Part shown: positions 20,042 to 42,900 of the stretch, piece after piece
How positions within the stretch are numbered: position 1 is the stretch's first letter
Layout: each line of letters opens with the position of its first letter
From: Maribellus sediminis
Lineage (GTDB): Bacteria; Bacteroidota; Bacteroidia; Bacteroidales; Prolixibacteraceae
Assembly: GCF_011799805.1 (NCBI RefSeq)
Contig: NZ_WXUB01000001.1
Span: 1,116,001-1,180,000, forward strand
Reading direction: 5' to 3'
Length of the DNA stretch: 64,000 nucleotides
Position numbers and translations under genes: made by a program
Notes under the pieces: model-generated
What the model was told of the DNA's origin: nothing
What the model saw: only the letters and a program-made list of their open reading frames with translations
Database searches by the model: none

Positions 20042-21457
20042 ATGAAAAACAGTTATTTTGATTTGATTGAGCAGAGCTACTACTTTCCGCAGGAAGGCTT
20101 TGATTTGAGAGACAACTACCTGACGTTTCACGGTATTTCACTCATGTACCTGATAAAGAAGTACGGAACTCCGTTCAGGTTTATATACCTTCCGAAGATT
20201 GGCGATCAGATCAAAAAATCGAGAAACCTGTTTAACAAGGCCATAAAAAAGAGCAACTACGAGGGTAAATACTACTATTGTTACTGCACCAAGTGTAACC
20301 ACTTTTCGCATGTAATTAACGAGGCGCTAAAACACAATGTGAACCTCGAAACTTCTTCGTCGTACGATATCGATCTCATTCTGCATTTATACAAGGATAA
20401 AAAGCTGGATAAAAACCGGATCATCGTTCACAACGGTTATAAAACGGAAGAGTACCTGAGCAAGATCATTTCGATGCAGCGTTTGGGTTTCAAGAATAAT
20501 ATTATTGTTCTTGACAGTATGAACGAACTGGATCGTTTGGAGAAACTGGCGAACGGCGATAAGCTGAAGCTGGGTATCCGGATGGCGATTAATGAAGAAT
20601 CGCAGTCGGCTTATTATACTTCCCGACTGGGAATCCGACACACGCAAATCCTTGATTTTTACGAGAAGAAAATAAAAGGGAAGAAAAACCTGGAGCTGAA
20701 AATGCTGCATTTCTTTGTCGATTCAGGAATTAAGGACAGTTTGTACTACTGGGGCGAGTTTCAGAAAGCAATCAAACTGTATATCGACCTGAAAAAGCAA
20801 TGTACATCGCTCGATGCTTTTAACCTTGGCGGAGGGTTCCCGATTCGTAACCACCTGGGTTTTGAGTACGATTACGAGTACATGATCAAAGAGATCGTTT
20901 CGAACATAAAAACAGCTTGTGCAGCCGAAAACCTGCCCGATCCTGATATTTTTACCGAATTTGGCAAATACACGGTGGGCGAAAGCGGTGCCATCATTTT
21001 TGAGGTGCTGGAGCAAAAGCAGCAGAATGATACTGAAAGCTGGTACATTATTAATAACAGTTTGATGAATACGATCCCGGATTCGTGGTCGATATTCGAG
21101 AAATTTATTCTTCTGCCAATCAACAAATGGAACAACGAGTACCGGCGTGCGAACATTGGCGGTATCAGTTGCGATCATTCGGATTATTACAACTCGGAAG
21201 ACTTTAACCAGGAAGTGCTGTTGCCATCGTATTCCGATGACGACAAGGAACCGCTTTACCTTGGATTTTTTCATACCGGTGCTTATCAGGATGCAATAAG
21301 CGGTTACGGCGGAATTAAGCACTGCCTGATCCCGTCGCCAAAACATGTAATTATCGATCGCGACGAAAAAGGAAACTTTATCGATTACGTGTACCGTAAC
21401 GAGCAGTCGGCCGACGATATGTTCAAAATTCTGGGTTATAATAAAGAGGAAGAGTAA
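20042..21457 (+). CDS. Arginine decarboxylase (alanine-racemase-fold PLP enzyme)
   Basis: 471 residues. The overall match is to the short Bacteroidota arginine decarboxylases: YFPQEGFDLRDNYLTFHG, KYGTPFRFIYLPKIGDQIKKS, YYYCYCTKCNHFSHVINEALKHNVNLETSSSYDIDL (as a region, about 78-115) and FNLGGGFPIRNHLGF. The PLP lysine is probably that of CYCTKCNHF (about residue 83). A C-terminal Asp-rich active-site loop (ISCDHSDYY) and LGFFHTGAYQDAISGYGG are also present. It converts arginine to agmatine, which yields putrescine via agmatine deiminase and N-carbamoylputrescine amidase; these two are not in the window. It is divergent from the carboxyspermidine operon, so the intergenic region may coordinate both. 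Confidence 0.88.
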   Translation: MKNSYFDLIEQSYYFPQEGFDLRDNYLTFHGISLMYLIKKYGTPFRFIYLPKIGDQIKKSRNLFNKAIKKSNYEGKYYYCYCTKCNHFSHVINEALKHNVNLETSSSYDIDLILHLYKDKKLDKNRIIVHNGYKTEEYLSKIISMQRLGFKNNIIVLDSMNELDRLEKLANGDKLKLGIRMAINEESQSAYYTSRLGIRHTQILDFYEKKIKGKKNLELKMLHFFVDSGIKDSLYYWGEFQKAIKLYIDLKKQCTSLDAFNLGGGFPIRNHLGFEYDYEYMIKEIVSNIKTACAAENLPDPDIFTEFGKYTVGESGAIIFEVLEQKQQNDTESWYIINNSLMNTIPDSWSIFEKFILLPINKWNNEYRRANIGGISCDHSDYYNSEDFNQEVLLPSYSDDDKEPLYLGFFHTGAYQDAISGYGGIKHCLIPSPKHVIIDRDEKGNFIDYVYRNEQSADDMFKILGYNKEEE

Positions 21458-25031: not shown

Positions 25032-25631
25032 TTAGTAGGAATGTTTTCCTGTGGTCCAGCCTTTTTTGTTCAGGTATTTTTCTCCCGATTCAATAGCGCC
25101 GCTTTCCATTTCTGTACCCATCGAATCGTTCCAGCGGTTGAGGTAGCCAAACAAAGCCACTACTCCGGTAATTTCCACTATTTCACCTTCATCCCAATAT
25201 TTTCGAAGGTTTTCGGCAATGGCATCGTCCACTGAGTTTGGAATAATTGAAGCTGCAAATGCGAAATCGAGCGCTGCGCGTTCGGCTTCTGAAAATGCCG
25301 GATGTGTCTTATAATCCCAAATGCTATCAAGTTTTTCCTGTTCGGCACCGTAACGTTCGGCGGCGCGAATTGCATGAGCCTGGCAATAACGGCAACCTGC
25401 TGCATTGCTGCTGATGTAGGCGATCATCCGTTTCAAAGCACTTGTTACCCGCCCGTGATTGGCCATTACCGCTTTATTCATTTCAATAAAGGCATAAGCA
25501 ATGTGTGGCCGGTGGTGCATCGTACGCACACTATTCGGGCAAAAGCCCAGCGTTTCATTGTAAAACTCAATCAATTTTTGAAGCTCAGGATCAGTATCTC
25601 CTGATTTTGGAATAACAAGCGGTTGTTTCAT
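25032..25631 (-). CDS. Carboxymuconolactone decarboxylase / AhpD-like peroxidase-related protein
   Basis: 199 residues. The AhpD-type active-site segment CRYCQAHAIRAAERYG supplies two redox cysteines (CxxC) and a following His, as in peroxidase-related members of the CMD family. Upstream HRPHIAYAFIEMNKAVMANHGRV and downstream FAFAASIIPNSVDD fit the all-helical fold. It is likely a thiol-dependent hydroperoxide reductase or a carboxymuconolactone-decarboxylase-like protein. The name alone does not imply aromatic degradation, and no other protocatechuate-branch genes lie here. It is followed by the AI-2E family membrane protein in the same direction upstream, with 26 nt between them. Confidence 0.85.
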   Translation of the reverse strand: MKQPLVIPKSGDTDPELQKLIEFYNETLGFCPNSVRTMHHRPHIAYAFIEMNKAVMANHGRVTSALKRMIAYISSNAAGCRYCQAHAIRAAERYGAEQEKLDSIWDYKTHPAFSEAERAALDFAFAASIIPNSVDDAIAENLRKYWDEGEIVEITGVVALFGYLNRWNDSMGTEMESGAIESGEKYLNKKGWTTGKHSY

Positions 25632-26772: not shown

Positions 26773-28104
26773 TTAACCCAATTTTTCCGATTCAGGCAAT
26801 CCCCATTCTTCTTTCATGGCAATCCCTAAGGTCTCCAATTCATTCAAAACCGGTTCGTAAATTGTTTTTGTATTTGGAATTTGAACTCCCGTATCGCTGA
26901 TTTTTCCTTCGAGGATCATTTTAACCGCTATTGCGGCCGGTAATGCAACTGTCCGGGCAATTGAAGTATCTTCTTTTGTGGCAAAATCAATCAGGTGTGA
27001 TTTTACAACTTCTTTCGATCCATCACTGTTTTGAACCAGAAAAGAGTGCATCATAATCACCATATCACGCGCGCCTTCGGGCAGCATCATTTTTTTCTGC
27101 ATCCGTTCAGTAGTCAGGTCGAAAGTGGAACCTTCGCTCATTTTTACCAGGTCGTCGCTAAACAAACCAAGCCATTCCATGGCAATAATTGCCGGGCTGT
27201 TGATCGATAAGTTCAGTCGCTCAGCAACTTTTTCCTTCATGTTAGCCGGGTATACATCAAGCTGGCGCGCCATGACTTTTTTGTAGGTTTTACCTTCAAA
27301 GCTTTTGCGGTCGTAACTCAACATGCCAATTGCTTTAAGGGCGTCCATAATTTCGCACCAGTTTTTGTAACGGAAAGTTCCACGGTACATGGTATCAATC
27401 TCCTTTAGATTGTAGAGATCGATGTACATCAGCGAATCGCGATTCGGGTAAACTTCCATTTGCCCAACTTCCGGGAAATTGATTTGCAGCGGACGCTTAA
27501 AAAGGTCTTCTGTTGGAATTTCAACGATTTCGCCATTCTTTAAGTACCGGGCACTGTTGTTTCCGGCCATGATAACACCACGAGGCGACCACGAGAATTT
27601 ATAGCGGAACGGGTTATTCGCTTCTTCAGGAGCAGCCAGTGCACCGCATAACGAATAGAATTCTTTTACTTTTCCACCCTGATCGTGCACTTTGTCGATG
27701 ATGCGCATGGCTGTCATGTGATCGAAGCCAGGATCAACCCCGATTTCGTTCAGAATAATGATGCCTGCTTTTTTAGCCGCCGAATCGAGCGCCTTCATTT
27801 TTTCGGACACATACGAAGTGGTAAGCATGTTTTTGCCATGCTTAATACACAGTTTCGCAACTGCAACGTGGTAGATATAGGGCAATAAGCTAACAACCAG
27901 ATTATTATCCCTGACCAAGTCTTCCAGCTTCTTCATGTCTTCCATGGTCCACGACACCGCTTTACCGTTGGCTTTGTTTTGCAGTAGCTTTTCTGCTTTT
28001 TCAATGGTGCGGCTGGCAACGGTAAGTTCTATATTGTGGTTGAGTAAGTATTCTGTAATGGGTTTGGTAACCATCCCGGCGCCAAGTAAAAGTACCTTTT
28101 TCAT
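26773..28104 (-). CDS. Saccharopine dehydrogenase, Lys9/SDH type (copy A)
   Basis: 443 residues. It closely follows fungal saccharopine reductase (glutamate-forming): LLGAGMVTKPITEYLL, LVVSLLPYIYHVAVAKL, LTTSYVSEKMKALDSAAKKAGI, NEIGVDPGFDHMTAM, CGALAAPEEANNPFRYKFSWSPRGVIMAG and a C-terminal Sacchrp_dh_C domain. The end of beta-2 reads VASRTIEKAE; Ser-Arg in place of an acidic residue suggests NADP(H). In the lysine direction it would split saccharopine to glutamate and 2-aminoadipate semialdehyde. It is divergent from the aminomutase operon and has a diverged paralogue at 35888-37240, so the two flank the cluster. Role in lysine catabolism is inferred from context. Confidence 0.9.
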   Translation of the reverse strand: MKKVLLLGAGMVTKPITEYLLNHNIELTVASRTIEKAEKLLQNKANGKAVSWTMEDMKKLEDLVRDNNLVVSLLPYIYHVAVAKLCIKHGKNMLTTSYVSEKMKALDSAAKKAGIIILNEIGVDPGFDHMTAMRIIDKVHDQGGKVKEFYSLCGALAAPEEANNPFRYKFSWSPRGVIMAGNNSARYLKNGEIVEIPTEDLFKRPLQINFPEVGQMEVYPNRDSLMYIDLYNLKEIDTMYRGTFRYKNWCEIMDALKAIGMLSYDRKSFEGKTYKKVMARQLDVYPANMKEKVAERLNLSINSPAIIAMEWLGLFSDDLVKMSEGSTFDLTTERMQKKMMLPEGARDMVIMMHSFLVQNSDGSKEVVKSHLIDFATKEDTSIARTVALPAAIAVKMILEGKISDTGVQIPNTKTIYEPVLNELETLGIAMKEEWGLPESEKLG

Positions 28105-28240
28105 TTTCTAAATTACCTTAAAAACTTCCTGAATCTTAACGTGTTAAAAACGTGGAAGTCAATTTTCTGTTTTCTTTTAAATGCTATGTAAAGGTGGTGA
28201 AATTTTATCAGCTTGTGCTTCAGATGTTGTAAAAAATATC

Positions 28241-28494
28241 TTAAATAAAATATCTCTTATAAAGTTTGCTTAACTTAAGGCCATGATTCAATCGTATCAA
28301 TGTCCGATTTTCTTCTACGTTGGGATGCCCGAGTGTCTCGATGAGGATACGGTTTCTCATTAGCTGCCTGCGCAGCTTCTCCATTAGAACGATTTTCCCG
28401 CATCAGGATGTGAATTCAGGTGCCTTCTAATTGCATTTTTATAAACCTTTTCAGGCTGACCTGAATCACTAACGACGGGAGTCGATTCCGATTT
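28241..28494 (-). other. Unrecognised open frame, possible small or truncated gene
   Basis: On the minus strand an open frame of about 84 codons runs from just below a stop at 28495-28497 to a TAA at 28241. Its composition looks coding: a basic, helix-rich sequence with LRRQLMRNRILIETLGHPN and HGLKLSKLYKRYFI near the end. The only ATG lies at 28384, which would give 47 residues. It occupies the 448-nt divergent gap between the two lysine-related operons, and the rest of the gap is described at 28450-28528. It may be a decayed gene, a small protein with an unusual start, or chance. I do not recognise it. Confidence 0.25.
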
Positions 28495-28528
28495 TTATGT
28501 GATGTTGTACAACGCTGCTTGTGCGTTG
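28450..28528. promoter_or_regulatory. Cluster of dyad repeats upstream of the aminomutase operon
   Basis: Three perfect inverted repeats lie 25-103 nt before the operon start: TTCAGG-N4-CCTGAA (28450-28465), GTTGTACAAC (28504-28513) and CAACGC-N7-GCGTTG (28510-28528). They resemble operators for a dimeric regulator, but no regulator gene is near. No clear -7/-33 pair was found, so the promoter itself is unassigned. Confidence 0.35.
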
Positions 28529-28552
28529 ATCGTAAAACAAAAAAAACAGGTC

Positions 28553-30139
28553 ATGAATTCTCACGAGTATATCAAAAACCTTGAAATGTCTGATGTTCTT
28601 CGTATGCTTGAACGCTATCAGCTAAATTTTGAAACCATCCAAACCATTCAACAGGAAAATCTTCTGCCTCCCGGACTTATAAAGCGTTTGCACAATGCTT
28701 ATCCGCAACATTCCGGATTTTTCTACGACGATAAAATTATTTTTAATGAAAAGTCGCGTTACTCAGGCTTAAAGGGGTTTCGCGAAATTGTTCAAAAACT
28801 GAAAGACCACGGAATTTTGATTGATCGGATGAACGATCGCGAATTTTTTATTGAAGTGTACCGATTTATGGTCACCGGATTTGTGTTGAATACCATCGAC
28901 TGGAAAAATTTAGAGCACGATTCAAATTACCAGCTGGTATTTCCGCAACCCGGAATGATGCCGGCCAAGGCTGTGAAAAAGTATGCCGAAGCCAAAACTG
29001 ATGAGGAAAGGCAAAAAGTGGTGGATGAATATATGCTTAAAACCAATCCGCACGACGGCAAACAAAAACTGAATAAACCCTGGTACATTAACGACGAAGG
29101 TCAGCTGGAAATTCTGGAAGGGAGCCAGCACAAATACCCGCCGATTAAACTGATCCTCGACCAAACCACGCAAACCTGCTTTTCTTTCTGCACCTACTGT
29201 TTCAGGCACGCACAAGTGCGTGGTGATGAGGATATGTTTGTTCAGCGCGAAGTTTCGCAGGTGCACGAGTACCTTAAACGACACAAGGAAGTGAGCGATA
29301 TTCTCATTACCGGCGGCGACGGTGCGTTTATCCCTTACGAGCGCCTGTTGGAATATGTCGATCCGCTGATCGAAGATCCGGAACTGATGCACATCAGGAC
29401 TGTTCGAATAGGATCGCGGGCTATTAATTTTCAGCCCGAACTGATCTTGAGCGACCAATTCAAGGCGAATCTCGAATTGCTTAAAAAACTGATCGATCAT
29501 GGCATTCAGGCCATTTGGGTGGCTCATATTTCTACTCCTCACGAAATCCTGAATCCGGCTTCTGTGGCCGCAATCCGAAGGTTGAAGAAATACGGGATCA
29601 CTGTAAAAAGCCAAAGCCCGATCATGAATCACATCAGCCTGTTTTACGATGAAAACGGGAAGGTTGACATCGATCGTTCGGCTCAAAACTGGATCGATCT
29701 TGGAAATGTGTTGGGGATGCTGGGTATCGGATTTCATTCGATGTACTGTGCACGGCCAACCGGCGAACACCATTATTTTACAGCTCCTTTGGCTGATATC
29801 TCAAAGATCTTCAACAAAGTATACCGAACTCTCTCTTCTGTGAATCGCCCCTCGCGTTACATCACAATGACCTCCTCGGCCGGGAAAACCTCCTTGTTGG
29901 GAACTACCGAAATAAAAGGCGAGAAAGTGTTTGTACTCAAGTTTAACGAGGCACGAAACATGGAATGGATGGACACCACTTTCTTTGCTAAATACGATGA
30001 AACTGAGAACACCATTGAAAAACTGATCCCTTTCGATGGCGATAATTATTTCTACGAAGAAGAGCTGGAGGCAATAGAATCCAGGCTTTCCGAGGCACTT
30101 GAAAAAGAAATGAAAATAGCCGAAAATCATGATCAATAA
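28553..30139 (+). CDS. KamA-like radical SAM aminomutase, probable 2-aminoadipate 2,3-aminomutase
   Basis: 528 residues from the ATG at 28553; the 18 residues before it look non-coding. The radical SAM motif is Cys209-x3-Cys213-x2-Cys216 (TCFSFCTYCF), and the PLP lysine is expected at Lys445 (SSAGKTS). KamA of Clostridium has about 416 residues, so there is an extra N-terminal region of roughly 110. In lysine 2,3-aminomutase two Asp residues bind the lysine side-chain amine. In my hand alignment these become Arg401 (MYCARPTG) and Met439 (YITMTSSA), with spacing 38 against 37. An Arg there suits a substrate with a distal carboxylate such as 2-aminoadipate. First gene of an operon; overlaps the next by 11 nt. 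Substrate is inferred. Confidence 0.85.
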   Translation: MNSHEYIKNLEMSDVLRMLERYQLNFETIQTIQQENLLPPGLIKRLHNAYPQHSGFFYDDKIIFNEKSRYSGLKGFREIVQKLKDHGILIDRMNDREFFIEVYRFMVTGFVLNTIDWKNLEHDSNYQLVFPQPGMMPAKAVKKYAEAKTDEERQKVVDEYMLKTNPHDGKQKLNKPWYINDEGQLEILEGSQHKYPPIKLILDQTTQTCFSFCTYCFRHAQVRGDEDMFVQREVSQVHEYLKRHKEVSDILITGGDGAFIPYERLLEYVDPLIEDPELMHIRTVRIGSRAINFQPELILSDQFKANLELLKKLIDHGIQAIWVAHISTPHEILNPASVAAIRRLKKYGITVKSQSPIMNHISLFYDENGKVDIDRSAQNWIDLGNVLGMLGIGFHSMYCARPTGEHHYFTAPLADISKIFNKVYRTLSSVNRPSRYITMTSSAGKTSLLGTTEIKGEKVFVLKFNEARNMEWMDTTFFAKYDETENTIEKLIPFDGDNYFYEEELEAIESRLSEALEKEMKIAENHDQ

Positions 30140-30845
30140 AATTGTATCAACAGTAAATGAAGCTGTGGCTGATGTATTTGATGGCGCCACAGTTCTGATC
30201 AGCGGATTTGGTGAAGCCGGAAGTCCGGTGGAACTCATCCATGCTTTGGTTGATCAGGGAGCAAAAAACCTAACCGTGGTGAGTAATAATGCAGGTAGTG
30301 GACATGTTGGGCTGGCGGCGCTCATCGAAAACCGGCAGGTTCGCAAGATCATCTGTTCCTTTCCGCGTACTTCTATTTCCGTGGTTTTTCCTGAGTTATA
30401 CCGAAAAGGCGAAATAGAACTGGAGTTGGTTCCGCAAGGGACTTTGGCCGAGCGAATTCGTGCCGGAGGTGCAGGAATCCCGGCATTTTTTACTCCGGCA
30501 TCTGTAAATACTCCTTTGGCTGAAGGTAAGGAAGTAAGGACATTCGGTAAGCGTGATTTTGTGTTGGAATATGCTATTAAAGCTGATTTTGCCCTGGTAA
30601 AATGCAGTAAAGCCGATAAATACGGGAACCTGGTTTACAACAAAACAGCGCGGAATTTTGGCCCGGTAATGTGCACTGCAGCCAAAACTACCATTGTTCA
30701 GGCTAAACAAATCGTGGAAGTTGGCCAGCTTGATCCTGAATGTGTGATTACGCCGGGGAATTTTGTCCATCGTGTGGTGGAAGTTGCCAATCCTGCCGAC
30801 GAATCAAAATTGGTTGCCGAAGAAAGGAGGTATCCGTGGAACTAA
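30129..30845 (+). CDS. 3-oxoadipate CoA-transferase subunit A (PcaI-like)
   Basis: 238 residues. The subunit is very close to Pseudomonas PcaI as I remember it: SNNAGSGHVGLAAL, VRKIICSFPRTS, VFPELYRKGEIELELVPQG, LAERIRAGGAGIPAFFTP, ADFALVKCSKADKYGNLVYNKTARNFGP, GQLDPECVITPGNFVHRVV. It transfers CoA from succinyl-CoA to 3-oxoadipate together with the beta subunit that follows. The start overlaps the aminomutase stop by 11 nt, which argues for translational coupling. No dioxygenase, cycloisomerase or other ring-cleavage gene is nearby, so 3-oxoadipate must come from elsewhere, and here from the lysine side (inferred). Confidence 0.9.
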   Translation: MINKIVSTVNEAVADVFDGATVLISGFGEAGSPVELIHALVDQGAKNLTVVSNNAGSGHVGLAALIENRQVRKIICSFPRTSISVVFPELYRKGEIELELVPQGTLAERIRAGGAGIPAFFTPASVNTPLAEGKEVRTFGKRDFVLEYAIKADFALVKCSKADKYGNLVYNKTARNFGPVMCTAAKTTIVQAKQIVEVGQLDPECVITPGNFVHRVVEVANPADESKLVAEERRYPWN

Positions 30846-31495
30846 GCAAAGGCTGGAACCTGGCACAAATGGCTCAAAATGTTGCCAATGATATTCCTGA
30901 TGGTGCTTATGTAAATCTTGGAATCGGTATGCCCGAGTTGGTAGCCGGTTTTATCCCCGAAGGTCGCGAGGTGATCTATCATACTGAAAATGGTTTGCTT
31001 GGAATGGGAGAAGTTGCCGAAGTCGGTTACGAAGATCCTGAGCTGGTAAATGCAGGTAAAAAATACGTGACTGCCATTCCGGGTGCTGCCTATTTTCACC
31101 ATGCCGACAGCTTTGCAATGATCCGTGGCGGCCACATCGATATTTGTGTTTTGGGAGCCTACCAGATTTCGGAAGAAGGTGATCTGGCCAACTGGTCAAC
31201 GGGCGATGAAGATGCAATTCCCGCTGTTGGAGGAGCGATGGATCTGGTGGCCGGTGTAGAGAACATTTTTGTGATTACAAAACATTGCACTAAAAGTGGT
31301 GAATCAAAAATTGTTAAACACTGCACATATCCCTTGACCGGCAAAAATGTGGTCAGCAGAATTTATACTGATCTTGCCATTATCGATGTAGTAGATAAAA
31401 AACTGGAAGTCCGGGAGCTTGCTCCGGGTATCAGTTTCGAAGAACTTCAGGAGCTTACCGCGGCAGAACTTTACATGTCAAACTATTCAATCTGA
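30836..31495 (+). CDS. 3-oxoadipate CoA-transferase subunit B (PcaJ-like), GTG start
   Basis: 219 residues from the GTG at 30836, close to the family length of about 213. The start is fixed by a perfect Shine-Dalgarno AAAGGAGG at 30823-30830, 5 nt before it, which is rare in this window, and by alignment to PcaJ, which begins at the same point; an earlier ATG at 30740 gives a nonsense Cys-rich extension. Features: GAYVNLGIGMPELV, the catalytic Glu51 in HTENGLLGMG, HHADSFAMIRGGHIDICVLGA, DLANWSTGDEDAIPAVGGAMDLVAG. It overlaps subunit A by 10 nt. The active-site Glu forms the glutamyl-CoA intermediate. It is cytoplasmic. Confidence 0.9.
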   Translation: MELSKGWNLAQMAQNVANDIPDGAYVNLGIGMPELVAGFIPEGREVIYHTENGLLGMGEVAEVGYEDPELVNAGKKYVTAIPGAAYFHHADSFAMIRGGHIDICVLGAYQISEEGDLANWSTGDEDAIPAVGGAMDLVAGVENIFVITKHCTKSGESKIVKHCTYPLTGKNVVSRIYTDLAIIDVVDKKLEVRELAPGISFEELQELTAAELYMSNYSI

Positions 31496-31500
31496 ACGCC

Positions 31501-32829
31501 ATGACCAAGACCAGTAACAGCGAAAAATTATACAAAAAGGCCGAAAAAGTGCTTGCTGGCGGAGTGAGTCGGAATACTGTATTCCGACAACCTTATCCGA
31601 ATTATGCCAACACGGCCTCGGGGTGTTACATCAGCGATATTGAAGGAATTACGCGAATTGATTTTGCCAATAATATGGCGGCGTTGATTCACGGGCATTC
31701 ATTTCCTCCGATTGTTGAGGCGGTGATCGAACAATTAAGAAAAGGAACCGCTTTTACGCTGGCATCAGAAATTGAAGTGGCCTTTGCACAGCACCTGATC
31801 AAACGAGTAAAAAGTTTCGAACGAATTCGATTCGTAAACTCGGGAACCGAGGCGGTAATGGCGATGATAAAAGCTTCTCGAGCCTTTACAGGCCGGCCAA
31901 AAATTGCCAAAGCCGAGGGTGCCTATCACGGAACTTACGATTTTGCGGAAGTCAGTCAAACAGCAAATCCATCCAACTGGGGTCGGATTGATCGGCCGGC
32001 CAGTGTTCCGCTGGCTCACGGCACACCTCCAAATGTGCGGAAAGATGTGATCATTTATCCTTATAACGACATCGAGAGAACCTTGAATATTCTCGATCGC
32101 TATGCCGATGAGATCGCCTGTGTGATCATTGATCCGGTTCCGCACCGCGTTGGTTTAATGCCGGGGACTGATGAATTTATTGAAGCCATTTACAACTGGA
32201 CGCGAAAAAATGACGCGCTCATGGTTTTTGATGAAGTAATTACGTTCAGGGTGAATTATGGCGGAACCCAGGAAAACTACAAAGTTCAACCTGATCTGAC
32301 ATCGCTGGGTAAAATTATCGGCGGCGGTTTTCCGGTTGGTGCTGTAGCAGGTCGTGCCGACGTAATGAAGGTGTTCGATCCGCACGAGAAAAACCTGTTG
32401 TTGCCACACTCAGGAACATTTTCAGCCAATCCGATTACCATGACTGCCGGTTTCAAGGCCATGGAATATTTCGATCGGAAGGCTGTTAAAGAATTAAACG
32501 CCCTGACCCAAAAAGCCATTCATCAAATTCAGGAAGCGATCAAGCTGGAAGATGTACCGGTTTCGATAACTGGTGCAGGTTCCATGTTCAGGATGCATTT
32601 ACGCGCAACTCCGCCTGCCACTTACCGCGAGGCCTGGCAGAATCCCGAAGAAAGTGCTGTGATTAAAGAGCTCCTGGAATACATGTACACAAAAGAAAAT
32701 ATTCTGATGATCAACACTTTTTCGTGCATGCTTTCAACTGTAATGACTCAGAATGAAATCGATAAGCTCACGGAAGGTTTGCAACGCGCCTTCCGGGCGT
32801 TAAAACCAAAAATTGGTAAGTTGAAATAA
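31501..32829 (+). CDS. Class III (GSAM-type) aminotransferase, probable 3-aminoadipate transaminase
   Basis: 442 residues, fold-type I PLP enzyme. The lysine expected to hold PLP is Lys271 (SLGKIIGGGFPVGA) with Asp244 in FDEVITFR. The N-terminal VLAGGVSRNTVFR, IDFANNMAALIHGHSFPPIVEAV, RFVNSGTEAVMAMIKASRAFTGRPKIAKAEGAYHG resemble glutamate-1-semialdehyde aminomutase and especially the beta-amino-acid aminotransferases of that clade (beta-phenylalanine aminotransferases of Mesorhizobium and Variovorax), as far as I recall them. The operon position, between the aminomutase/CoA-transferase and the thiolase, suits conversion of 3-aminoadipate to 3-oxoadipate. hemL itself is unlikely, since this is not beside haem genes and the family match is to the beta-amino-acid branch. 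Confidence 0.85.
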   Translation: MTKTSNSEKLYKKAEKVLAGGVSRNTVFRQPYPNYANTASGCYISDIEGITRIDFANNMAALIHGHSFPPIVEAVIEQLRKGTAFTLASEIEVAFAQHLIKRVKSFERIRFVNSGTEAVMAMIKASRAFTGRPKIAKAEGAYHGTYDFAEVSQTANPSNWGRIDRPASVPLAHGTPPNVRKDVIIYPYNDIERTLNILDRYADEIACVIIDPVPHRVGLMPGTDEFIEAIYNWTRKNDALMVFDEVITFRVNYGGTQENYKVQPDLTSLGKIIGGGFPVGAVAGRADVMKVFDPHEKNLLLPHSGTFSANPITMTAGFKAMEYFDRKAVKELNALTQKAIHQIQEAIKLEDVPVSITGAGSMFRMHLRATPPATYREAWQNPEESAVIKELLEYMYTKENILMINTFSCMLSTVMTQNEIDKLTEGLQRAFRALKPKIGKLK

Positions 32830-32884
32830 GTAAAATGATTAATCAAGCTCGAAGCTAATCGCTCGAAGCTCAAAGCTATAAGAG

Positions 32885-34087
32885 ATGAAAGAAGTATTTA
32901 TATGTGATGCCATTCGAACTCCGGTAGGAAAATACGGAGGATCGCTTTCCTCGGTTCGCCCTGATGATCTGGCCGCGATTCCTTTGAGAGCCATTCTTGA
33001 ACGAAATCCCGGAATTGATGCAACCGAAATCGACGATGTAATTTTTGGGTGCGCTAACCAGGCAGGTGAAGATAACCGCAATGTAGCGCGAATGGGGCTT
33101 TTGCTCGCCGGATATCCTGAATCGGTACCGGGGGTTACGGTGAATCGCCTTTGCGCATCGGGGATGGAAGCGGTGGCCATGGCAGCACGAACCATACGCA
33201 GTGGTGAGGCAGAGTTGATCATTGCAGGAGGAGTGGAAAGCATGTCGCGTTCACCTTTTGTAATGCCAAAACATACGACTGCGTTTTCACGTGAGGCTGA
33301 AATTTACGACACTACCATTGGCTGGCGCTTTGTTAATCCAGAATTTTTGAATCGTTTTGGCACCGATCCGCTGATTGCAACTGCCGAGAATATCGCTGAA
33401 GAATACAATATCAGCCGCGAGGATCAGGATCGTTTTGCGCATCATAGTCAGGAAAAAGCAGCTGTAGCACAGAAAAATGGTCTGCTGGCCCGGGAAATTG
33501 TTCCGGTGACTATTCCGCAGCGAAAAGGCGACCCTGTGCTTGTTGAAGTTGATGAACATCCCCGACTGACATCGCTTGAGAAACTGGCCTCTCTGAAACC
33601 TGCTTTTCAAAAAGACGGAACCGTTACTGCAGGGAATGCTTCTGGAATTAACGATGGTGCAGCAGCACTTGTCGTTGCTTCTGCTGAAGCTGTAAAACTT
33701 TTTAACCTGGTTCCGAAAGTGAAGATTTTGGGAACTCAGGCTGCAGGTGTTCCACCGCGAATAATGGGAATCGGACCTGTTCCGGCCACAAAGAAAGTGC
33801 TGAGTCTACTCGGAATGTCACTTGAGCAGATGGATATTATTGAGTTGAACGAAGCCTTTGCTTCGCAGTCATTGGCGTGTATCCGCGAATTTGGACTCGA
33901 TGACTTTGATCCACGAATAAATCCACTGGGTGGTGCCATTGCTTTGGGCCATCCGCTTGGAATGTCGGGAGCACGTTTGCTGACCACCGCTTTTCATCAG
34001 ATGAGCAATACCGAATCAAAATATGCCCTATGTACCATGTGCATTGGTGTTGGTCAGGGGCTTTCAATGGTACTCGAAAAAATTTAA
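32885..34087 (+). CDS. 3-oxoadipyl-CoA thiolase (PcaF/PaaJ-like)
   Basis: 400 residues, the standard thiolase length. The catalytic residues are Cys90 (NRLCASGM), His356 (LGHPLGMSG) and Cys386 (TMCIGVGQG). The stretches CANQAGEDNRNVARMGLLLAGYPES, GGVESMSRSPFVMPK and especially DTTIGWRFVNP are marks of 3-oxoadipyl-CoA thiolases and set it apart from ordinary acetoacetyl-CoA thiolases. It would cleave 3-oxoadipyl-CoA to succinyl-CoA and acetyl-CoA. The substrate is inferred from these motifs and from PcaI/PcaJ upstream. A 55-nt gap separates it from the aminotransferase. It is cytoplasmic. Confidence 0.92.
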   Translation: MKEVFICDAIRTPVGKYGGSLSSVRPDDLAAIPLRAILERNPGIDATEIDDVIFGCANQAGEDNRNVARMGLLLAGYPESVPGVTVNRLCASGMEAVAMAARTIRSGEAELIIAGGVESMSRSPFVMPKHTTAFSREAEIYDTTIGWRFVNPEFLNRFGTDPLIATAENIAEEYNISREDQDRFAHHSQEKAAVAQKNGLLAREIVPVTIPQRKGDPVLVEVDEHPRLTSLEKLASLKPAFQKDGTVTAGNASGINDGAAALVVASAEAVKLFNLVPKVKILGTQAAGVPPRIMGIGPVPATKKVLSLLGMSLEQMDIIELNEAFASQSLACIREFGLDDFDPRINPLGGAIALGHPLGMSGARLLTTAFHQMSNTESKYALCTMCIGVGQGLSMVLEKI

Positions 34088-34104
34088 TTCTAAAAAATAT
34101 TCAA

Positions 34105-35661
34105 ATGATTGACACAATGAAAGAAATAGATTTCAAACCTATTTTAAAAGAACTCCACCTCGAAGCAAAAAATCCTGGTGTATGTACCGGAACAGAATGG
34201 AAATACACTACCGGTAAATTCATCGAATCGTTTTCGCCATCCGACGGAAAATTGATAGCAGGAGTTCAGCAATGCGGCGTTGAAGACTACCATGAAGTAA
34301 TTGAAACCGCCAAAGAAGCTTTTAAAAGTTGGAGAATGGTGCCGGCACCAAAACGTGGCGAGGTTGTCCGCCAGATCGGACTTGAACTGCGAAAATACAA
34401 AGAACCTCTCGGTAAACTGGTTTCCTATGAAATGGGAAAGATTTACCAGGAAGGTTTGGGCGAAGTGCAGGAAATGATTGATATCTGCGATTTTGCAGTG
34501 GGGCAGTCGCGCCAGTTATATGGTTTTACCATGCATTCCGAACGTGCTAAACACCGCATGTACGATCAGTATCATCCGCTGGGAATTGTCGGAGTGGTTT
34601 CGGCGTTTAACTTTCCGGTAGCCGTTTGGGCGTGGAATGCCATGATTGCACTGGTGGCCGGCGACGTTGTGGTTTGGAAACCGTCGTCGAAAGTGTATCT
34701 CTGCGCAGTTGCGGTGCACAAAATTGTTGCAAAGGTTTTAAAGGAAAATAGTGTTCCTGAAGGTGTGTTGAACCTCGTTGCTGCCGATTCAAAAGTGCTG
34801 GGCGACACACTGTTTTCTGATAAAAACATCCCATTGGTTTCATTTACCGGATCCACAAGAATTGGCAAAAAAGTAGGACGGCTGGTTGGCGAGCGTTTGG
34901 GACGCTCCATCCTTGAACTTGGGGGTAATAACGCCATCATTATCACTCCAAATGCCGATTTGGAAATGGCATTGCGGGCGGTTGTTTTTGGCGCCGTTGG
35001 TACCTGCGGACAGCGTTGTACCTCCACCCGCCGGATTATCATGCACGAATCGGTTTACGAAACGTTCAAACAAAAACTGGTGGCTGTTTACGAAAAGTTG
35101 CCCATCGGTCATGCTTTGGATGAAACTACACTGGTCGGACCACTTGTCGATAATTGGGCAGTGCAGGATTTCCGGAATGCCATTGAACGTGTGAAAAAGG
35201 AAGGTGGAAATATAATCACCGGTGGCAAAGTTTTGGAAGGGGAGGATTACAGTTCGGGTACTTATGTTCGCCCGTGTATTGCTGAAGTTGAGAATCACTA
35301 CGATATCGTTCAGGAAGAAACCTTTGCCCCGATTTTGTACCTCATAAAATATAAAACGCTGGAAGAAGCTATTCAGATCCATAACGATGTGCCGCAAGGA
35401 TTGTCGTCGGCCCTGTTTTCAACCAACATGCTCGAAACGGAAACTTTCCTCTCGCATGAAGGTTCAGATTGCGGTATTGCGAACATTAATATAGGTACAT
35501 CGGGAGCAGAAATCGGTGGTGCTTTTGGCGGTGAGAAAGAAACCGGTGGCGGTCGCGAATCGGGCTCCGATGCCTGGAAAGCCTACATGCGCAGGCAAAC
35601 AAATACCATCAATTTTAGTACCGAATTGCCACTTGCACAAGGTATTGAGTTTAGTGTGTGA
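34105..35661 (+). CDS. ALDH7-type aldehyde dehydrogenase, probable 2-aminoadipate semialdehyde dehydrogenase
   Basis: 518 residues from the ATG at 34105 (another in-frame ATG is at 34117). It overlaps nothing but begins 17 nt after the thiolase. The catalytic Cys is at about residue 305 (TCGQRCTSTRR) and the general base Glu at about 271 (LELGGNNAII). The C-terminal GGAFGGEKETGGGRESGSD, WKAYMRRQTNTINFS and LPLAQGIEF are marks of the antiquitin (ALDH7) group, whose animal and bacterial members oxidise 2-aminoadipate semialdehyde (in equilibrium with piperideine-6-carboxylate) to 2-aminoadipate using NAD+. That matches the saccharopine dehydrogenases on both sides of the operon. Confidence 0.92.
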   Translation: MIDTMKEIDFKPILKELHLEAKNPGVCTGTEWKYTTGKFIESFSPSDGKLIAGVQQCGVEDYHEVIETAKEAFKSWRMVPAPKRGEVVRQIGLELRKYKEPLGKLVSYEMGKIYQEGLGEVQEMIDICDFAVGQSRQLYGFTMHSERAKHRMYDQYHPLGIVGVVSAFNFPVAVWAWNAMIALVAGDVVVWKPSSKVYLCAVAVHKIVAKVLKENSVPEGVLNLVAADSKVLGDTLFSDKNIPLVSFTGSTRIGKKVGRLVGERLGRSILELGGNNAIIITPNADLEMALRAVVFGAVGTCGQRCTSTRRIIMHESVYETFKQKLVAVYEKLPIGHALDETTLVGPLVDNWAVQDFRNAIERVKKEGGNIITGGKVLEGEDYSSGTYVRPCIAEVENHYDIVQEETFAPILYLIKYKTLEEAIQIHNDVPQGLSSALFSTNMLETETFLSHEGSDCGIANINIGTSGAEIGGAFGGEKETGGGRESGSDAWKAYMRRQTNTINFSTELPLAQGIEFSV

Positions 35662-35724
35662 AGTTTAAAGTTTAGGGTTCAGAGTTCAAAGTAGAAGAAC
35701 CGAAAACGAGTTGATCAACGCATG

Positions 35725-35825
35725 AAAAACCCTGAAAGGGTTTGATTATAATGGCCCCGGGTTTTAACCCGGGGTTCGGCGCACGGGAAAAGGCGGATTG
35801 AAAATCCGACCAATCCTGCGCCGAA
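35725..35825. repeat. Array of hairpins between the ALDH7 and saccharopine dehydrogenase genes
   Basis: Three palindromic units follow one another: AAACCC/GGGTTT (35727-35743), CCCCGGGTTTTAACCCGGGG (35755-35774) and TTCGGCGCA/TGCGCCGAA (35775-35825) enclosing CGGATT/AATCCG (35794-35808). All have long perfect stems. It looks like a REP/MITE-like intergenic element of Bacteroidota, though the first hairpin may also act as a terminator for the operon. The flanking 35662-35724 and 35826-35887 show no gene. Confidence 0.65.
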
Positions 35826-35887
35826 AAGAGCAGAAGTAGATCAGTATGAGGAAAATAGAAACCAGAGATAAAGTTTAGAATTTACCT

Positions 35888-37240
35888 ATGAAGAACATAT
35901 TAATATTCGGTGCCGGACGATCCAGTAAATATTTGATTGAATACCTGGTTGAACATGCCCGTTTGTATAACTGTAAAATACGCATAGCAGATTTGCAGCT
36001 TGATGAAAAACGGTCAACTCCGGAAGTTGAGTATTCCGTATTAAATGTCAGGGATGAATTTGCCCGCGATGCTGAGGTAAAAATTGCCGATCTGGTGATA
36101 TCGATGTTACCGGCCCGTTTTCATAAACTGGTTGCTCAATCGTGCTTGAAATTCTCGAAAAATCTGCTGACTGCCTCTTACGAAACAAACGAACTAAAAG
36201 CTTTCGAAGAAGAGGTAAACGAAAAAGGACTTTTCTTTCTGAACGAATGCGGACTCGATCCCGGTCTCGATCATATGTCGGCCATGAAAATGATCGATGA
36301 AATAAAGAGTAGCGGAAATGAAATGCTTTCTTTCGAGTCGTTTACGGGCGGTTTGGTAGCTCCCGAATCAGATAATAATCCCTGGAACTATAAGTTCAGC
36401 TGGAATCCGCGAAACGTGGTATTGGCCGGTCAGGGCGGTCCGGCACAGTTTATTCAGAACGGAAAAATAAAGTACATTCCATATAATCGCCTGTTTCGTC
36501 GCACAGAAATGATCGACCTTGGCAAATATGGTATGTTTGAAGGATATGCCAACCGCGATTCGTTAAAATACCTCGATCGGTATAGTTTACAAGGTATTCC
36601 AACAATTTTCAGGGGAACGCTTCGCAGGCCCGGTTTCAGCAAAGCATGGAATGTGTTCGTTCAGCTGGGTGCCACCGACGATTCGTATGTAATGGAAGGC
36701 ACTGAAAACATGACTTACCGCGAGTTTATCAATTCTTTCCTGCCATACCACCCAAGCGATTCGGTGGAGCTGAAACTGTTTCACTACCTGAATATTCCCC
36801 AGGATTCTGAAATCGTATACAAGTTGAAATGGCTGGGAATCTTTGAAAACACGCCCATCGGTTTGAAGCGTGCAACGCCTGCACAGGTGCTCGAACATAT
36901 TCTGAAACAAAAATGGCAGTTGCGCTCCGAAGATAAGGACATGATTGTGATGTGGCATAAATTCATTTTCAGAAACAAGCACACCGGGCAAACATTAAAA
37001 AAGACAAGTTCATTGGTAGTAACAGGCGAAAACAGTGATGATACAGCAATGGCACTTACAGTTGGTTTACCACTGGCGGTGGCTGCAAAACTGGTGCTCA
37101 CTGATCAGCTGAAACTAAAAGGCATGTTTATTCCCAACAGAAAAGAAATTTACGAGCCCATTTTGGATGAACTCGAGAATTATGGGATAACCTTTTACGA
37201 ATCCGAAGTTGTTGAGGAAGAGACGTCGGTGTGTTATTGA
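35888..37240 (+). CDS. Diverged saccharopine dehydrogenase paralogue (copy B)
   Basis: 450 residues, same fold as the copy at 26773-28104: FGAGRSSKYLIEYLV, LVISMLPARFHKLVAQSC, LTASYETNELKAFEEEV, NECGLDPGLDHMSAMKMID, GGLVAPESDNNPWNYKFSWNPRNVVLAG. It is clearly diverged: the beta-2 end reads IADLQLDEK with an Asp, which suggests NAD(H), unlike the Ser-Arg of copy A. Candidate roles are lysine-2-oxoglutarate reductase or a second saccharopine-splitting enzyme, since no Lys1/LKR-type gene is in the window. It is separated from the operon by a hairpin array (227 nt), so it may be transcribed separately or by read-through. Confidence 0.88.
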   Translation: MKNILIFGAGRSSKYLIEYLVEHARLYNCKIRIADLQLDEKRSTPEVEYSVLNVRDEFARDAEVKIADLVISMLPARFHKLVAQSCLKFSKNLLTASYETNELKAFEEEVNEKGLFFLNECGLDPGLDHMSAMKMIDEIKSSGNEMLSFESFTGGLVAPESDNNPWNYKFSWNPRNVVLAGQGGPAQFIQNGKIKYIPYNRLFRRTEMIDLGKYGMFEGYANRDSLKYLDRYSLQGIPTIFRGTLRRPGFSKAWNVFVQLGATDDSYVMEGTENMTYREFINSFLPYHPSDSVELKLFHYLNIPQDSEIVYKLKWLGIFENTPIGLKRATPAQVLEHILKQKWQLRSEDKDMIVMWHKFIFRNKHTGQTLKKTSSLVVTGENSDDTAMALTVGLPLAVAAKLVLTDQLKLKGMFIPNRKEIYEPILDELENYGITFYESEVVEEETSVCY

Positions 37241-39548: not shown

Positions 39549-39923
39549 ATGCAGGAAATAACCAAAGCTCAGGAAGAAATCTTAAAGGCGCTCTGGACAA
39601 TAGAAAGAGGTGCCGTGAGTGACATTCTTAATGCACTGCCCGATCCCAAACCGGCATACAACACGGTTGCGACAGTTATTAAAGTGCTGGAGAAAAAGAA
39701 ATACGTTTCCTATAATAAATACGGAAAAACTTTTGTGTACTATCCGTTAATCAGTCAAAAAGAGTACGGGAAACAAATTTTTACCAGTACGCTAAAAAAC
39801 CTTTACAACAATTCACTCACCCAAATGGTATCTCATTTTATGAAAAGCAAAAAGGTGAGTCTCGATGAATTGGAAGCCCTGAAAGCTTCGATTGAAGATG
39901 AAATCAAAAAACAAAAACCGTAA
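39549..39923 (+). CDS. BlaI/MecI/CopY-family winged-helix repressor
   Basis: 124 residues. The winged-helix segment (EITKAQEEILKALWTIERGAVSDILNALPD in pieces, PAYNTVATVIKVLEKKKYVSYNKYGKTFVYYPLISQKEYG) is typical of the MecI/BlaI repressors of beta-lactamase and stress operons, including the ALWTI and YNTV sites. The C-terminal helix (VSLDELEALKASIEDEIKKQ) should give the dimer. It lies 3 nt upstream of a BlaR1-type M56 protein, and the two are the expected repressor-sensor pair. Target and ligand are unknown, and no beta-lactamase lies nearby. Confidence 0.92.
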   Translation: MQEITKAQEEILKALWTIERGAVSDILNALPDPKPAYNTVATVIKVLEKKKYVSYNKYGKTFVYYPLISQKEYGKQIFTSTLKNLYNNSLTQMVSHFMKSKKVSLDELEALKASIEDEIKKQKP

Positions 39924-39926
39924 ACG

Positions 39927-42900
39927 ATGGGCACCCCAACTAATTACCTGATCGCAACGTCAGTCTGTCTGGCATTTACCTATCTCATTTATCTTCTTTT
40001 TTTCAGAAAGGAAACCAATTTCAGACAGCGCCGCTTCTTTCTTATTTTTGCTGCAGTTTTTTCCTTGCTTCTCCCAACGGGTAGCTACTACATTCTACTG
40101 CCTTTAACTAAAAATGCAGAAACACAAACAGAAGTCTTTGCTCCTCCTCCGGTTTGGGAAAGACCAGCTCTACAAACTACTCCAACCGATTTTTATCCTG
40201 TTAACCCGGTTTCCGTTCCCGATGCAGAACCGGTAAAAAAGAGAAATTCAATCAATTGGTTGCAGGCTTTACAATACCTGTATTTTGCCGGACTTGCTGT
40301 TTTGTTGCTGCGTTTTATTGCACAGCTTGTAACCATTAATGTTTGGTACTACAAGTCGCGAAAAGTAAAACAGCCACTATTTACGCTGTTGTTTCACGAA
40401 CGGTTTTCCACGACCTTTTCCTTTTTTAGCTGGATTTTTTTGACAGAGAAAAGGATGCCGGAAGCCGATCTGGACAAGATTATTGCACACGAAAGCGTAC
40501 ACGTAAAACAAAGGCACTCATTCGACGCCGTATTTTTTGAGTTGCTCTGCATTTTTATGTGGTTCAACCCGATTGTTTGGATGATGCGCCGCTCCATAAA
40601 TCTTACACACGAATTTCTGGCCGACGAAGGCGCCATTCAGTCGGGCATTGACAGTTTGCATTACCAGGCCTTGATGGTTAACCAGGTGGCTGAAGGAAAC
40701 ATTGTGAGCATAGCTTCCAATTTTAATAAATCGATGTTAAGCCGGCGTATAAAAATGATTGCCGACAGTCGCTTGTATAAAAAGGCGAAGTACAAGATCC
40801 TGGTGTTGGCTCCTGTGGCGCTGGTTTTGTTTTTATTTATTGCCGGCGTTAATGGCCTGAACCAGCGAAAGGTTCTGTACCGGAATCTCAAAAAGGATCC
40901 TGTAATCAGTAAAGTATTTTCAAAAGACGAAATAAAAGATTTGGTAGAACTGAGGTTGATGACCGATGAAATGGTGATTAATACAACCGGCGAGTCTGAC
41001 ACAAAGATTGCCTATCAGAAGTTTAATGAATTGCTGTCGTCGAAAAACACAGGGGAAGAAGTTGAGGGGATTATAACCGTGCCTCATGATTCATTGGTAA
41101 CTGTGGTGAAATCGCATCCTGCCTTGTTGGAAATCTATGATGTATCGAATAGTAATTATATGAGTTTTAGCATTAACCGACAGGGAAAGGTAATGGAATT
41201 TCTACAAGAATTATCAAAACAAAATGGCGTATACAAAAACGTTCTTGAACGTATTGAAATTGCCGGGGATATTTCTCCTTCAAATATTTCGTCGTTTATA
41301 AAGGAGCCGGAAAAATACAATATGGAAAGCGAGGCAGAACGATTGTATGCATCAATTATTTATGGATTTTTGAGTAATGAAATAATATTGAAGGGAAAGT
41401 CACAAAATAGAAAGGTTTTGGAAAATGAACTTTACCAAAATATGTTGAAAGATCTGGTAATCAGTAAAGTATTCTCAAAAGATGAAATAAAAGGTTTAGT
41501 TGACTTACGATTGATGAATGATGAGATGGTGGTTAATGTAACCGGCGAATCAGACACGAAGATTGCTTATCAAAAATTTAATGAACTTTTAATTCAAAAA
41601 GAAACAACAGACGAACTTGAAAGCATGATCATTTTGTCTCCCGATGTTTTTAAAAATGTAGTGAGATCACATCCTGTTTTTGATGAAATATGGCATGTTT
41701 CGGGTGTTGGTTCCTGGGATTTTACTTTTAGAATTTTCGGAAAGTTTATGCAGTTTTTAAAAGCCATGAGCAAACAAAACGATGTATATTATGGCCTTGC
41801 TTATACGCTTGAACTTGCCGGGGATGTCTCACCAGGCTTGATTTCTCCATTTTTTCAGAATCCCGAAAAATACAAGATGGAGACTGAAGCAGAAAAACTT
41901 TATGCGTCTTTTATTTACGGTATTTTGGCGAATGGTAAGATCGTGAATCAGGATAAAACGAGTAACGATGATGAGCAAGAAGAATGCGGATGTTATAGTG
42001 GAATCGGTTCTTCCGAAACAGATAAACCAAGTATGGTGGTTGAATTCAGCAATCGAGTCAGTGTTTCGGTTTGTGGTTTTGAGAAAGAAAAGATATCAGA
42101 TACGGAGGTTGTTGTATCGGAATTCAATGTTTTTGATTGCAAAACAGGAAAATCGTTGCTTGAATATGGTGCTGTAAACACCTGCAATGTAAAATTTGCA
42201 GATGGGAAGTTATATATTACTGAATTGGAGTATTTGCCAGCCGGGGAAAACTGGAAATGGGAATCAATTCCGATGATGCAGGAATACTTATTTGTGAATG
42301 GGGATAATTTATCAAAGTCACCACGGAAATTTGTTTACCAGAAGATTAATATCCCGCAAACCAGGGTTGACAGGTTTATGCAAGAAGTAAGGAACCTTAA
42401 AGGAAAAGGCTATAATAAGGATTTTGAAACGATTTTGGGTAGATTAGCTTTATTAGCACTAAATGGCAATATGGAAGCGAAAAATATCCTTTCGAATTTT
42501 GAAACATACTTCAATAGCAGCCCGGATGGATCGGTTGCAGAATTATTAAACAGATGGACATCATTGATTTCCTATTGGAAGGATTATCAGGATACAAGGA
42601 TCGACTTTAAGGTAAATAATTCGGAAGTAATAATTCATGACGAGGACAACTATTCAACAAATTTTATGGCCGGTTTATTTAGTTTGCCGCCAGAGTATAA
42701 AAAGATAGAACTAAGAGGAAGTACACTCATTTTAAATGATATGGTTTTCGAACCGTTGCCTGATTATCTTGGTTTGGGTAAAACATATAAAATGGAAGCG
42801 ACTGACGACAACATACATGTAGAGCTTTCATTTACCCAGAATACATACACTAGTATTGATTATGTTGTTCAGGTAAGTCAAAATGGTGAGCCTCAGAAAC

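Follow-up and report, generated by a model that had tools for sequence, protein, structure and literature searches.

The genes at positions 26773 to 37240 of the window, the 64,000-nucleotide stretch of Maribellus sediminis contig NZ_WXUB01000001.1 analyzed here, raise the question of which compound is degraded when a KamA-like radical S-adenosylmethionine (SAM) protein is encoded together with a 3-oxoacid coenzyme A (CoA) transferase, an aminotransferase, a thiolase and saccharopine pathway genes. An original prediction from the sequence had read them as a lysine route through 3-aminoadipate and 3-oxoadipate to succinyl-CoA and acetyl-CoA, and the eight open reading frames on which it was built were all present (Table 1). 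We propose, with a probability of roughly 0.7, that the five genes KamAL, CtA, CtB, AT3 and PcaF form an operon for the lower half of this pathway. The reading is based on gene families, operon conservation, active-site replacements and co-occurrence with saccharopine genes; from these we infer which compounds KamAL and AT3 act on, the specificity of the CoA-transferase and the direction of flow. In this qualified form the predicted route is supported.

In the proposed pathway, lysine and 2-oxoglutarate would be converted to saccharopine by lysine-2-oxoglutarate reductase (LKR), the product of an unlinked gene, and saccharopine dehydrogenase (SDH) would release 2-aminoadipate semialdehyde and glutamate. 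The semialdehyde would be oxidized to 2-aminoadipate by ALDH7. The new step would be catalyzed by KamAL, a putative radical SAM and pyridoxal phosphate (PLP) enzyme, which is predicted to shift the amino group from C2 to C3 and so to form 3-aminoadipate from 2-aminoadipate. AT3 would transaminate 3-aminoadipate to 3-oxoadipate, CtA/CtB would transfer CoA from succinyl-CoA onto the latter, and the resulting 3-oxoadipyl-CoA would be cleaved by the PcaF-type thiolase to succinyl-CoA and acetyl-CoA. Six carbons would enter and four plus two would leave, and neither an oxoacid dehydrogenase nor an acyl-CoA dehydrogenase would be required. The steps from 3-oxoadipate onward are known chemistry of the beta-ketoadipate pathway, whose last two steps (PcaIJ, PcaF) are carried out by the same transferase and thiolase families as encoded in the operon. 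There, 3-oxoadipate stems from an aromatic ring, whereas in the proposed route it would stem from an amino acid.

For a comparison with 32 further loci, of which 31 are distinct (L006 and L136 are one contig), the best tblastn match per gene was taken at an identity of at least 35%. The order KamAL-CtA-CtB-AT3-PcaF on the same strand was found in 25/31 distinct other loci. These 25 include L014, in which frames are broken and KamAL is 37% identical, and recurrence of the order even there indicates that the arrangement is not due to chance. Among the remaining six, L004, L009, L013, L138 and L155 reach the contig end, and the L152 contig ends with AT3 followed by a different frame of 174 residues. 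About 4.5 kb separate CtB from AT3 in L150. According to the labels of the genome collection, the operon is spread over 14 or more Bacteroidota groups of family level. The flanks of the other KamAL loci differ, and some visible flanks are short. Ten neighbouring proteins were typed outside the close relatives of the host, in L008, L010 and L013 only, and none was from an aromatic pathway; they include CCA tRNA nucleotidyltransferase, MiaA, carbonic anhydrase, arginine decarboxylase, release factor 3, a HipA-like protein, a beta-CASP nuclease, a regulator and others.

Families were assigned by scans with hidden Markov models against curated sets (NCBIfam/TIGRFAM cut-offs, Pfam) and by sequence matches to the PDB. 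The labels given to the PcaF-type thiolase, the PcaI/PcaJ-type CoA-transferase and ALDH7 all held, with scores above the curated cut-offs. An objection foreseen with the prediction, that thiolase and transferase might act on acetoacetate, was answered for the thiolase, which exceeds the curated equivalog cut-off for 3-oxoadipyl-CoA thiolase and thereby belongs to that family. CtA and CtB lie above the PcaI/ScoA and PcaJ/ScoB subfamily cut-offs, and both models take in acetoacetate as well as 3-oxoadipate enzymes.

AT3 is under the HemL cut-off (344.6 vs 527.3), and its nearest solved relative is the omega-transaminase of Sphaerobacter thermophilus (6k8h). In PMC10589169 this enzyme is described as active on several beta-amino acids and one gamma-amino acid, which agrees with the predicted beta-amino-acid type, and its Arg36 is proposed by the authors to hold the substrate carboxylate. 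This presumed carboxylate-binding residue is kept in AT3, where it aligns with Arg24, and it is Arg in 28/28 aligned loci (32 searched, one contig twice).

KamAL was found to belong to the KamA superfamily and yet to score under the cut-off of every KamA-family model, the best being TIGR00238 (79.5 vs 199.2). With the lysine 2,3-aminomutase model TIGR03820 it reached 63.8 bits (cut-off 525.4), and with Pfam Radical_SAM 28.6, slightly short of the gathering score of 29.5. Its sole PDB relative at E 0.001 was lysine 2,3-aminomutase 2a5h, and its closest named relatives are Maribellus and Draconibacterium records of 78-79% identity. Since all KamA-family cut-offs are missed, the name 'KamA-like' originally chosen is right, and 'lysine aminomutase' would be a misnomer. 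Whereas the other parts belong to known families, KamAL forms a subfamily without a name.

Residue positions of KamAL were read from an alignment with the host's own lysine 2,3-aminomutase AblA, itself aligned to 2a5h, for 31 sequences (one contig counted twice). C125, C129, C132, R134, Q258 and K337 were retained in 31/31, so that KamAL shares with lysine 2,3-aminomutase (KamA/AblA) the radical SAM cysteines (CxxxCxxC), Arg134, Gln258 and the PLP lysine 337 of the KamA-type radical SAM PLP aminomutases. In contrast, the position of D293 is occupied by Arg in 31/31, and that of D330 by Thr in 28/31 and Ser in 3/31. In 2a5h, the side-chain amine of lysine is taken by us to be bound by D293 and D330, its carboxylate by R134 and the PLP by K337. 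A site that has lost both aspartates and carries Arg in place of one of them fits a substrate whose side chain ends in a carboxylate.

A second KamA-like group (L017-L043 and others), common in Bacteroidota, comprises proteins of about 450 residues with 31-38% identity to KamAL; in 7/7 sampled proteins (31-34% identity) position 293 is Arg and position 330 is Ser. KamAL matches at E <= 1e-30 were obtained in 43/395 genomes; all except the host (G000), G349 and G070 reach only the level of this second group, and G070 has both.

The supply of 2-aminoadipate from lysine was also considered. KamAL (E <= 1e-100) and saccharopine dehydrogenase (E <= 1e-45) were counted in 295 genomes of the order, with the same settings and genome labels, and the counts were taken as one draw. 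KamAL was present in 19 genomes and saccharopine dehydrogenase in 160; the latter occurred in 18/19 KamAL genomes vs 142/276 others (Fisher p 1.6e-4, with shared ancestry ignored). G454, the sole KamAL genome of the draw without it, is 70% complete and its KamAL is fragmented.

Of the two saccharopine dehydrogenases originally placed in the cluster, both stood as Lys9-like enzymes, but neither SDH_a nor SDH_b is of the Lys1/LKR type that opens the saccharopine pathway. A homologue of LKR is encoded outside the window (G000:C5:914231-915439) and shares 60% identity with the gene that lies between those for ALDH7 and SDH in G465. The top PDB match of this homologue is AASS 8dda (E 4.7e-42), with a weaker match to Lys1-type saccharopine dehydrogenase; the AASS matches presumably cover the LKR half. 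LKR and saccharopine dehydrogenase are thus both present in the host genome (5.6 Mb, completeness 99.96%), which with ALDH7 has all enzyme types of the saccharopine pathway to 2-aminoadipate. When 20 KamAL genomes were searched by score and frame length (G454 left out), an LKR-like gene was detected in 19, and in 12/20 it lies no more than 2 kb from a saccharopine dehydrogenase. The same search was also positive in all four non-KamAL genomes included, which were picked for having ALDH7, and therefore holds no negative control. G349, the KamAL genome lacking an LKR-like gene, gave no match in a saccharopine dehydrogenase search and carries lysine 6-transaminase (635.2 vs 520.8) and ALDH7 (789.8 vs 730) 2.4 kb apart. 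Two upper pathways, the saccharopine route elsewhere and lysine 6-transaminase plus ALDH7 in G349, would thus meet at 2-aminoadipate.

Several observations weigh against the proposed pathway, some of them in favour of an alternative. The prediction had treated all eight genes as one lysine cluster; the five genes at 28553-34087 are conserved, but linkage to ALDH7 (L003, L005, L006 and L007) or to a saccharopine dehydrogenase (L003-L007) is confined to loci of close relatives of the host and thus looks like a local addition to a wider five-gene operon. Saccharopine dehydrogenase is common without KamAL: about half of the non-KamAL genomes of the order draw have it, and many must therefore handle the semialdehyde intermediate otherwise. 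ALDH7 was above cut-off in 8/21 KamAL genomes vs 4/21 others (p 0.31), the latter hand-picked and not random, and was consequently rejected as a universal partner of KamAL. It did not reach the cut-off in the other 13/21 (G426, G442, G464, G479, G488, G509, G533, G538, G566, G579, G607, G642 and the 70% complete G454), in 12 of which other aldehyde dehydrogenases match.

A further such point is the Arg at the equivalent of position 293 in all seven sampled proteins of the second KamA-like group. As it stands there together with Ser, Arg alone cannot separate glutamate from 2-aminoadipate; at most it points to an acidic side chain, without indicating how long that chain is. KamAL could accordingly be imagined as a glutamate 2,3-aminomutase in an operon that makes or degrades 3-aminoglutarate (beta-glutamate), since Arg293 would suit any acidic side chain and a radical SAM glutamate 2,3-aminomutase is already known, as cited in PMC11284099. 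That enzyme (TIGR04368) is of the same superfamily as KamAL, for which an acidic substrate is likewise proposed, and KamAL is set apart from it by profile score (55.2 vs 650). However, the thiolase, being above the 3-oxoadipyl-CoA thiolase cut-off, and the CoA-transferase fit a six-carbon diacid, and KamAL is associated with saccharopine genes. We therefore regard glutamate as an unlikely substrate, albeit the best-placed of the alternatives.

Somewhat less likely still is that KamAL acts as a lysine 2,3-aminomutase and that the operon degrades beta-lysine, first by transamination to 6-amino-3-oxohexanoate and then by CoA transfer and thiolysis, to 4-aminobutyryl-CoA and acetyl-CoA. Membership in the KamA superfamily would agree with this, and the later enzyme types would suit a beta-lysine chain too. 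Against it stand the replacement of both presumed amine-binding aspartates, one of them by Arg, in every KamAL sequence, the family membership of the thiolase, and the saccharopine or lysine 6-transaminase genes of KamAL genomes, whose products would remove the side-chain amine first. In addition, the host has a separate AblA on another contig (764 vs cut-off 525.4), which retains both D293 and D330, is about 19% identical to KamAL over the alignment and is followed by ablB, encoding beta-lysine N-acetyltransferase (301.5 vs 205.1); KamAL does not lie beside an ablB. With AblA and ablB, conversion of lysine to beta-lysine is already accounted for in the host. In view of the active-site residues and of the separate AblA, lysine was rejected as the probable substrate of KamAL, and an aminomutase acting on lysine only, which had been named as a way for the prediction to fail, is not what the alignment suggests.

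The host ablA/ablB presumably serve osmolyte synthesis. Nine genes around AblA were typed, AblA included; near ablA/ablB (G000:C6, L125:14115-16379) lie a symporter-like gene, a trehalose-phosphate synthase/phosphatase gene (above cut-off) and a trehalase-like gene, and the region is perhaps an osmolyte island.

The known continuation of the saccharopine pathway leads through 2-oxoadipate and glutaryl-CoA to crotonyl-CoA. 2-Aminoadipate might leave by this 2-oxoadipate route, through glutaryl-CoA or HglS, while the five-gene operon would serve another substrate. Two findings that count against the proposed pathway speak for such an outlet, as does the shortage of above-cut-off ALDH7. At least three genomes with KamAL encode glutaryl-CoA dehydrogenase: G349 and G550 (best PDB matches) and G070 (76% identity to that of G349). 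An alternative outlet for 2-aminoadipate may therefore exist in them, and the assumption that the enzyme is uniformly absent from KamAL genomes was wrong. Only these three were typed, chosen by score and frame length from the listed acyl-CoA dehydrogenases, and the G349 gene shares a contig with its lysine 6-transaminase. Moreover, a frame of the host itself matches the HGLS model, which may leave room for a 2-oxoadipate outlet. This frame, however, has 309 residues and lies on another contig, and within the scope of the search the host lacks the acyl-CoA dehydrogenase of the known continuation: glutaryl-CoA dehydrogenase was not detected, and two PF00441 matches (570 and 515 residues) are nearest to other acyl-CoA dehydrogenases. 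HGLS was above cut-off in 8/21 KamAL genomes (host included), in 7/20 with SDH and without KamAL and in 0/10 with neither; it was dismissed as a complement of KamAL because no pattern emerged from these counts. A 2,3-aminomutase takes an alpha-amino acid as its substrate, and 2-aminoadipate is indicated by the association with saccharopine genes; another substrate for the five genes appears very unlikely.

As for aromatic degradation, no match to the intradiol dioxygenase family PF00775 was obtained in the host (other pca genes were not searched), and aromatic degradation was rejected for this organism; the same search recovers the family in 4/14 named control genomes. Not in favour of the proposed pathway is that all three PF00775 matches among 42 genomes (21 with and 21 without KamAL) fall in KamAL genomes, G550 and G607 with weak scores above and G479 with one under the cut-off, vs 0/21 above cut-off without KamAL. 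The remaining 18/21 KamAL genomes, host included, have no match, so that by this marker the gene set does not always accompany aromatic genes, a pattern that had been named as one way for the prediction to fail. That CoA-transferase and thiolase serve the beta-ketoadipate pathway of aromatics and that KamAL and AT3 are unrelated neighbours, as their family identity and these three matches might suggest, is most improbable given the lack of PF00775 in most KamAL genomes, the persistence of KamAL and AT3 beside the transferase and thiolase genes in the 25 ordered loci, and the neighbour at 25032-25631, a gene of the carboxymuconolactone decarboxylase family that was discarded as an aromatic gene because its best NCBIfam match is a peroxidase-related enzyme, just under cut-off (75.6 vs 81.8).

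No description of a lysine route via 3-aminoadipate was found in the open-licence literature, subscription papers being mostly outside the search. In PMC9854754 the name 3-aminoadipate occurs in a reference title, apparently as a slip for alpha-aminoadipic acid. Lysine catabolism itself is known, as are the families of the parts other than KamAL; new, as far as we know, are the combination of these parts and the proposed 2-aminoadipate 2,3-aminomutase activity. It is fairly probable that KamAL founds a family with this activity and that the carbon-conserving operon replaces the decarboxylating glutaryl-CoA route in the Bacteroidota groups that carry it. If so, 3-aminoadipate as a natural metabolite and a 2-aminoadipate 2,3-aminomutase activity would be added to amino-acid metabolism, and all six lysine carbons would be kept as succinyl-CoA and acetyl-CoA. 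Lysine use would be explained for Bacteroidota which, like the host, have saccharopine genes and in which glutaryl-CoA dehydrogenase was not found, and annotations that call such genes aromatic degradation or 'lysine 2,3-aminomutase' would be corrected. The route may also interest makers of adipate-type products from lysine.

Table 1. Genes of the KamAL region with window positions and the matches used for assignment (scores in bits vs curated cut-off where both are given).
Gene	Product	Position	Strand	Match
SDH_a	Lys9-like saccharopine dehydrogenase	26773..28104	-	Pfam PF16653/PF03435; top PDB match saccharopine reductase 1e5l, E 1.2e-91
KamAL	KamA-like radical SAM protein, 528 aa; proposed 2-aminoadipate 2,3-aminomutase	28553..30139	+	TIGR00238, E 2.1e-22, under cut-off
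CtA	3-oxoacid CoA-transferase subunit A (PcaI/ScoA type)	30129..30845	+	TIGR02429, 349 vs 128.5
CtB	3-oxoacid CoA-transferase subunit B (PcaJ/ScoB type), GTG start	30836..31495	+	TIGR02428, 298.5 vs 243.55
AT3	Class-III aminotransferase; proposed 3-aminoadipate aminotransferase	31501..32829	+	PF00202; top PDB match 6k8h, E 1e-110
PcaF	PcaF-type 3-oxoadipyl-CoA thiolase	32885..34087	+	TIGR02430, 660.9 vs 597; NF006551, 683.1 vs 605
ALDH7	L-piperideine-6-carboxylate / 2-aminoadipate semialdehyde dehydrogenase	34105..35661	+	NF050084, 804 vs 730
SDH_b	Second Lys9-like saccharopine dehydrogenase	35888..37240	+	PF16653; top PDB match AASS 5l78, E 2.9e-66

The six genes from KamAL to ALDH7 are tightly packed, with successive gaps of -11, -10, 5, 55 and 17 bases (KamAL and CtA overlap by 11 bases, CtA and CtB by 10), and SDH_b follows 226 bases further on. 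The starts at 28553, 30836 and 34105 agree better with the alignments than those of the longest frames do. SDH_a runs divergently from the operon and adjoins the KamA-like gene in L003, L004, L005 and L007 as well; relatives of SDH_b in G465 and G658 lie downstream of ALDH7 and an LKR-like gene.

Outside the cluster, a 471-residue decarboxylase is encoded at 20042-21457 of the window, matched by arginine and diaminopimelate decarboxylase models far under all cut-offs, and 39549-44174 holds a gene of the penicillinase repressor family followed by one whose product, 1415 residues long, includes an M56 (BlaR1-type) peptidase domain. The plasmid-borne CtA-like subunit A closest to that of the window (68%; L160, Tistrella mobilis pTM2) has an aldehyde dehydrogenase gene and a DUF1338 gene in its vicinity. 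KamA-like genes on actinobacterial plasmids (L156, L159) are annotated as 'lysine 2,3-aminomutase' and lie in apparent biosynthetic clusters; the one on Rhodococcus pDK3 is accompanied by genes for FMN-dependent and SidA-family monooxygenases, a saccharopine-dehydrogenase-like protein and a member of the class I tRNA ligase family, and the one on a Streptomyces plasmid adjoins a nonribosomal peptide synthetase gene.

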